Positions 39,994 to 40,672 of a stretch of DNA of 54,719 bases are shown here, one piece after another. The stretch is from Desulfobacterales bacterium (GTDB lineage: Bacteria; Desulfobacterota; Desulfobacteria; Desulfobacterales; JANQIE01): NCBI GenBank assembly GCA_028282295.1, contig JANQIE010000093.1, positions 1 through 54,719 on the forward strand, written 5' to 3'. A program made the translations under genes and the position numbers. The first letter of the stretch is position 1. Every line of letters begins with the position of its first letter. The notes under the pieces are model-generated. The model worked only from the letters and a program-made list of their open reading frames with translations. It was not told the DNA's origin and did not search any database.

Positions 39994-40341
39994 CACAACA
40001 TCAGGCCTGTGTCCGGCACACTTGCTGTTTCGCAGCCAGACGTACCATCGCCGTATGGGCAGGGACGATAACCAGACTGGTGCGTATAAAAATTGACAAT
40101 GAAATGCATTTTTTGACACATATGCCAATTTTTGACCACAAAAGGCCAAGAAAACAAAATCCGGGAAAACAAAATTTTGACGCAACTTTAAAAAAAGATA
40201 TCTACAGCCCAACGGCCATTGTCGCCATAATACGTTTTATATAATATTTTCAAATAATTACGCAACAACACATCTTTACCGGCAAAAGAAACAAGCAAAA
40301 CACCCCTCATGATACATCCACACAATTACACAAAACGCCAC

Positions 40342-40357
40342 TGGCTTTAAAATTGCA
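40342..40357 (+). promoter_or_regulatory. Sigma-54 (-24/-12) promoter
   Basis: TGGC (40342-40345), seven bases, then TTGCA (40353-40357): GG at 40343-40344 and GC at 40355-40356 are separated by exactly ten bases, the invariant spacing. The -12 element is consensus and the -24 element keeps TGGC. The predicted start is near 40368. No enhancer-binding protein gene is adjacent. Confidence 0.6.
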
Positions 40358-40367
40358 TAATAAATCA

Positions 40368-40446
40368 GCAACATCCTAGCGGGTTTCGTAACCGCCAATG
40401 CCTCCTTCTTGCTTCGGGATGGCTCGCGGGGAGCCATCCCATTTTT
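40368..40446 (+). ncRNA. Candidate sigma-54-dependent small RNA / leader with terminator
   Basis: From the predicted start near 40368 the RNA would form a first hairpin, GCGG(G)TT with AACCGC around TCGT (40379-40395). A single-stranded C/U-rich stretch (GCCTCCTTCTTGCTTC) comes next, and then a perfect terminator: GGGATGGCTC (40416-40425), loop GCGGG, GAGCCATCCC (40431-40440), ATTTTT. The total is about 79 nt, the size of a typical small RNA. CTCCTT (40402-40407) is complementary to Shine-Dalgarno sequences, including AAGGAG (40466-40471) of the next gene. It could act in trans as an sRNA, or in cis as an attenuator. I do not recognise a named RNA family. Confidence 0.55.
40416..40446 (+). 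terminator. Rho-independent terminator, perfect 10-bp stem
   Basis: GGGATGGCTC and GAGCCATCCC pair without mismatch around GCGGG, followed by ATTTTT. It ends before the Shine-Dalgarno sequence of the zinc-ribbon gene at 40478. Confidence 0.88.
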
Positions 40447-40477
40447 CAAATTACAATTTACTCACAAGGAGATGCGA

Positions 40478-40672
40478 ATGCCGTTGGTTGAGTACAAATG
40501 TCAACGGTGTAATTACTCGTTCGCAAAACTGGTCTTAGGGTCGGGTGAAGAGTCCGTGACATGTCCCAATTGTCAGCAGCAGCAGATCGGTTGGCGGCTC
40601 AATTACACAACACTGTTTAAAAATCGCGGCTCAAGCACCGAGCAGCCCGAAATCGATCCCACCTCTTCCTGA
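40478..40672 (+). CDS. FmdB-like zinc-ribbon protein
   Basis: A 64-residue protein starting MPLVEYKCQRCNYSFAKLVLG, with a second CPNC pair, so four cysteines (CQRC and CPNC) form a zinc ribbon of the FmdB/regulatory type common in anaerobes. The tail is acidic and short. AAGGAG stands seven bases before the ATG; the frame opens at 40409 but that lies inside the upstream terminator. The small RNA-like region just before may regulate it. The binding partner is unknown. Confidence 0.75.
   Translation: MPLVEYKCQRCNYSFAKLVLGSGEESVTCPNCQQQQIGWRLNYTTLFKNRGSSTEQPEIDPTSS

Follow-up and report, generated by a model that had tools for sequence, protein, structure and literature searches.

The segment at 40342-40446 of the window (the whole stretch of 54,719 nucleotides analysed, which is contig C291 in a draft genome of 5.46 Mb rated 100% complete) is probably a stand-alone sigma-54 small RNA (sRNA) gene, whose product would pair in trans with Shine-Dalgarno (SD) sequences independently of Hfq, and which we regard as a divergent relative of a phylum-wide class among sulfate reducers and bacteria related to them.

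The element lies in an AT-rich gap of 484 bp between the end of a PilZ gene (39993) and the start of a small zinc-ribbon gene (40478), and its parts are listed in Table 1. An earlier note, made from the sequence alone, had described a TGGC-N7-TTGCA promoter with GG-N10-GC spacing, and this is exactly what is found (TGGC at 40342-40345, TTGCA at 40353-40357), every coordinate given for it being correct. The exposed CCTCCTTC stretch and the perfect 10-bp terminator with its T-tract are likewise present at the positions it gave. The small 5' hairpin is also predicted, but it is weak and inconstant, other related elements often lacking it; folding of the whole predicted RNA gives a z-score of -1.98, to which the terminator contributes most. 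Upstream of the promoter, TTTTTGAC direct repeats at 40107-40136 (CATTTTTTGAC / CAATTTTTGAC, 19 bp apart) are a possible candidate for an activator site. Rfam (release 15) has no match at the site at gathering score. When the zinc-ribbon and TPR neighbours served as synteny anchors, the zinc-ribbon gene was not found beside a TPR gene elsewhere. Other parts of the window carry a tRNA cluster Thr-Gly-Tyr-Thr at the contig end (177-736, minus strand), cobalamin biosynthesis genes at 10005-34024 (CbiA/GATase_3 type, CobS, CobD/CbiB), and a penicillin-binding protein that is 51-64% identical to its counterparts in Desulfobacteraceae/Desulfobacterales.

Table 1. Features in and around the putative sRNA gene (window coordinates)
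Feature	Position	Strand	Remarks
AT-rich upstream region	40080-40341	+	would hold activator/IHF sites
Sigma-54 (-24/-12) promoter element TGGCTTTAAAATTGCA	40342-40357	+	lacks the usual A/C after TGGC
Predicted small RNA, ~79 nt	40368-40446	+	start (G, 40368) inferred from the -12 element
Small 5' hairpin, GCGG 40379-40382 / CCGC 40392-40395	40379-40395	+	predicted, weak
CCTCCTTC	40401-40408	+	predicted mostly unpaired; holds the CCUCC anti-SD core of 16S rRNA; CTCCTT at 40402-40407
Intrinsic terminator	40416-40446	+	perfect 10-bp stem, 5-nt loop, A then T5; arms GGGATGGCTC/GAGCCATCCC span 40416-40440, T5 at 40442-40446
Small zinc-ribbon gene (Zn_ribbon_8/FmdB-like)	40478-40672	+	ATG 40478, AAGGAG 40466-40471

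A single promoter match proves little, as the genome contains 173 matches to TGGC-N7-TTGCW compared with 102 to the reversed control. The combination of parts was scored in a sample of 449,719 bases comprising the window and 20 stretches of the same genome, the contigs having been picked partly by sigma-54 pattern matches but not by terminators or CCTCCT. Among the 27 TGGC-N7-TTGCW sites of this sample, three are followed by a strong terminator and three by CCTCCT, and it is the same three that have both: the window site and two on other contigs (L222:15467 and L238:9140). Conversely, CCTCCT precedes only 3 of the 51 strong terminators, and each of these three has a suitably spaced sigma-54 element. 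Local Markov simulation (313 runs, 140 Mb) yielded 13.2 sites, 0.029 with a terminator, 0.083 with CCTCCT and 0 with both, and 400 motif permutations on the real DNA gave 2992 sites, with a terminator at 11, CCTCCT at 15 and both at none. The joint occurrence of promoter, CCTCCT and terminator is thus far from chance. The elements at L222 and L238 stand alone and have the same order of parts as that in the window, with an unpaired CCTCCTT and then a strong terminator; the CCTCCTTC stretch is common to all three and to most related elements. Together with the wide distribution of this architecture in the phylum, they support the small-RNA reading proposed in the earlier note.

This distribution emerged from a pattern search (TGGC-N7-TTGC, 10-70 nt, CCTCCTT) of 291 genomes of the order. 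The first 71 of them, one per family, gave 123 matches compared with 46 for the reversed control, and the matches include near-identical, often tandem elements (TGGCAAGCAAGTTGCA...AACCTAATAATTTCTTCATCTTTTTCCTCCTTT, then a long terminator), with tandem elements in genomes G183, G010, G207 and G230. In the order, the class has a simple plan of sigma-54 promoter, leader, CU-rich/CCUCCUU stretch and terminator. With a cut-off of E <= 0.01, 88 of the 395 genomes searched in the phylum match a covariance model (R2), based on an alignment (A5) of 25 members that all come from other genomes, the Infernal E-values being rough because of a shortened calibration; the genome sets searched are samples, and the distribution is stated at the level of order and phylum. 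Compensatory changes are found at 8 of the 11 consensus pairs of A5, all in the terminator, while three promoter 'pairs' in the consensus are an artefact. Single-sequence folds of class members leave the CU-rich stretch mostly unpaired, and the conserved stretch is complementary in many of them to an SD sequence, a spacer and AUG. In L292, L293, L295-L301 and L302-L304, it complements a ribosome site of generic type together with its start codon (AAAGGAGGAAAAAGATGAA, or a sequence close to it). At the related loci tested, Rfam gave nothing credible even at permissive thresholds, and neither Rfam nor the open literature searched appears to have a name for the class, with Dv_sRNA2 and the DVU0653 ncRNA compared by description only.

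A model built from the window sequence alone (R1) was discarded: its best matches were L214-L216, which have sigma-28-like promoters, those in L217/L218 looked like chance, and one in L134 was unsupported by its DNA. The three loci (L214:1501-1616, minus strand; L215:1014-1131 and L216:1487-1604, plus strand) each comprise a hairpin, a CU-rich stretch and a terminator-like stem, preceded by TAAAG-N14/15-(G)CCGA, a promoter of the sigma-28 (flagellar) type; the CU-rich stretch of L214/L215 is CCTCCTTTCTGAT, and L216 has no T-tract. They share the RNA plan of the sigma-54 class under a different sigma factor. A sigma-28 promoter in the window itself, a partial match only, was rejected by inspection. 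Identical 43-bp matches (TGGCGGGTGCTTTGCCTCGAATCATTTCAACTGAAGCCTCCTT) at 12 places of one genome (G128:C1) probably represent a mobile element.

The class is linked to activator genes. At 18 of 30 R2 loci the element sits 55-328 nt downstream, on the same strand, of a gene that bears the signature of sigma-54 activators (NtrC-type), an adjacent activator being absent at the other 12; six such neighbours, all in the order, proved to have the composition response regulator / sigma-54 AAA+ / Fis-type HTH. Fifteen of the 18 activators form one clade with 52-95% mutual identity, and the remaining three a second group. Several elements are preceded, at about -110 to -300, by one or two palindromes, of the types GTTTCC-N4-GGAAAC, GGTTCA-N6-TGAACC, GGTAAAA..TTTTACT and GTACAA..TTGTAC; the pair upstream of L222 consists of CGTCCGATTTTACGGACA and TGTCCGGTTTTACGGACA. 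Across the L313-L332 elements, the kind of palindrome found upstream appears to vary with the neighbouring activator's recognition helix.

The genome to which the window belongs has at least two clearer copies, found by R2 at C299:6508-6609 (L318, E 6e-14) and C197:9140-9235 (L238, E 1e-7), and an intermediate one at C8:15467 (L222), which is weak with R2 (E 0.33 per 450 kb). L318, on the minus strand, carries CCCCCTT in place of CCTCCTT. It lies upstream of NifU_N and RsbRD_N genes, and NifU_N or RsbRD_N also adjoins the tandem copies L292 and L293. The window copy has the promoter spacing, the seed and the distances of the class, as well as a terminator whose end falls about 90-120 nt beyond the promoter. 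With filters off, the top R2 match in the window is 40342-40448, in exact registration, although its score of 14.0 bits is not significant (E 0.3 per 54.7 kb), and with default filters it is not listed at E <= 5 in the 450 kb. A-22/C-21 are missing from its promoter, which scores 1.1 bits on the narrow class matrix, compared with a family mean of 25.0, and 162 sites in the 450 kb score at least as high. From the conserved stretch of the class it keeps only the SD-complementary part. Paired palindromes upstream of its promoter were not found by a test that also detected none in several clear members, and the window proteins scanned include no activator domain or gene. Given these weak R2 and promoter scores, and with neither palindromes nor activator, we call the window copy a divergent architectural relative rather than a proven member. 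The conservation of the -24/-12 element and hairpins by which the earlier note had proposed to judge its case can be assessed only for the architecture, which recurs in the phylum; the window sequence has no nucleotide homologue in relatives, as BLASTN of 40330-40490 against 58 of them returned short chance matches only.

Of several other explanations, one sees a cis-acting leader: the zinc-ribbon gene would have the sigma-54 transcript as its 5' UTR, the terminator would attenuate it, and CUCCUU could mask AAGGAG in the RNA that reads through. This was the alternative offered in the earlier note, and the complementarity of CTCCTT and AAGGAG on which it was founded is real; it also retains some plausibility because the zinc-ribbon gene begins, on the same strand, only 32 nt past the T-tract. 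We nevertheless consider cis attenuation less likely, and indeed improbable, as the ribosome site of this gene ranks 303rd among 527 gene starts for pairing with the seed, and as 28 related zinc-ribbon genes (protein identity only 30-45%) have no terminator within 300 nt upstream. Related elements, moreover, mostly stand alone, the genes downstream of other sigma-54/CCTCCT/terminator elements being convergent or distant, and the window leader contains no convincing antiterminator. A candidate antiterminator (CATCC/GGATG, 5 bp against the 10-bp terminator) was dismissed, as was a leader peptide (a frame of ~47 codons whose ATG overlaps the seed and which has no SD). The zinc-ribbon gene is probably transcribed by leak-through or from another promoter.

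That the terminator is a bystander, which disposes of leftover transcription from upstream and has acquired a -24/-12 match by chance, is a somewhat weaker contender still. The atypical window promoter and the frequency of such matches in the genome and its control would fit this explanation, but all three CCTCCT-preceded strong terminators in the 450 kb carry the element, against 0 of 2992 sites with permuted motifs, and the preceding gene ends 420 nt upstream. We can attach hardly any weight to the idea that CCTCCTT serves a short minus-strand gene as ribosome-binding site instead of being an sRNA seed. The reverse complement of many related elements does read AAGGAGG-N5/7-ATG, and numerous CCTCC matches at other places serve divergent genes as ribosome sites; in many members, however, the reverse frames run for only 4-8 codons before a stop, their length is not constant, the promoter and the T-tract are oriented forward, and on the minus strand of the window TTG is the only start close to CCTCCTT.

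We thus favour a stand-alone sRNA gene, and its mode of action can be outlined. Sigma-54 polymerase requires an upstream-bound AAA+ activator, and release at an intrinsic terminator produces a discrete RNA. For the window RNA we infer that an enhancer-binding protein would switch on transcription at the 40342-40357 promoter, from a start near the predicted G, and that intrinsic termination would yield the RNA of ~79 nt. Its exposed CCUCCUUC could then pair in trans with the SD regions of target mRNAs, and this pairing would block the initiation of translation. In duplex energy the seed pairs with gene starts no more strongly than shuffled seeds do, so that no specific targets can be named. A more far-reaching proposal, which we put forward tentatively and hold to be rather less probable than the function just outlined, is that the Desulfobacterota class consists of ancient, undescribed activator-coupled sigma-54 sRNAs, often in tandem, that serve as a broad, Hfq-free brake on translation initiation through a core UUCAUC-U5-CCUCCUUU that is complementary to a generic ribosome site, AAAGGAGG-A5-GAUGAA; the window RNA would be a divergent paralogue under a different activator. 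The genome of the window has a sigma-54 gene, and a search for Hfq in this genome (rated, as mentioned, 100% complete) gave no match; pairing would therefore be Hfq-independent, as for NfeR1 (PMC10746234).

Activator-adjacent sigma-54 sRNAs have so far been single cases (Pxr, Dv_sRNA2, Qrr), and our results suggest that the Desulfobacterota possess a widespread class of sigma-54 sRNAs with a simple common plan and a seed directed against ribosome sites, in at least one genome without detected Hfq. If the class is real, the signal sensed by the orthologous activator becomes testable, as does the question whether so general a seed controls a few mRNAs or translation at large. The Qrr sRNAs of Vibrio are similar in that several terminated, trans-acting sigma-54 sRNAs are under a LuxO-type activator, but they depend on Hfq and their conserved core is unrelated to CCUCCUU. 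In Desulfovibrio vulgaris, Dv_sRNA2 was described downstream of DVU0679 (PMC3333781), and four ncRNAs in all were reported downstream of DVU0653 and near other genes (PMC4641369). As proposed for the class, Dv_sRNA2 and the DVU0653 ncRNA are sigma-54-dependent and are both neighbours and targets of an NtrC-type response regulator (PMC3333781, PMC4641369), whereas no activator gene adjoins the window copy. Pxr of Myxococcus xanthus, of ~100 nt, also has a predicted sigma-54 promoter directly downstream of a sigma-54 activator gene (nla19/pxrR), tandem paralogues in Cystobacter and a host without Hfq; it differs in having three stem-loops with its function in loop SL1 (PMC5568312, PMC5684412), and CCUCC is unmentioned in the Pxr paper searched.

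The proposed seed has precedents of its own. CJnc230 (FlmE) of Campylobacter jejuni resembles the predicted window RNA in being RpoN-dependent and ~98 nt long, with a CCUU anti-SD sequence single-stranded between two stem-loops, and it represses translation at ribosome sites; it is, however, mostly processed from the flgE mRNA, is flagellar and has a different sequence (PMC11187230). The NfeR1 / alpha-r14 sRNAs of Rhizobiales silence mRNAs at ribosome sites through exposed CCUCCUCCC anti-SD seeds, independently of Hfq, but from a sigma-70 promoter and with three hairpins that each bear the motif (PMC10746234). Activator-adjacent sigma-54 sRNAs and anti-Shine-Dalgarno seeds are thus both already known, and the class described here joins the two.
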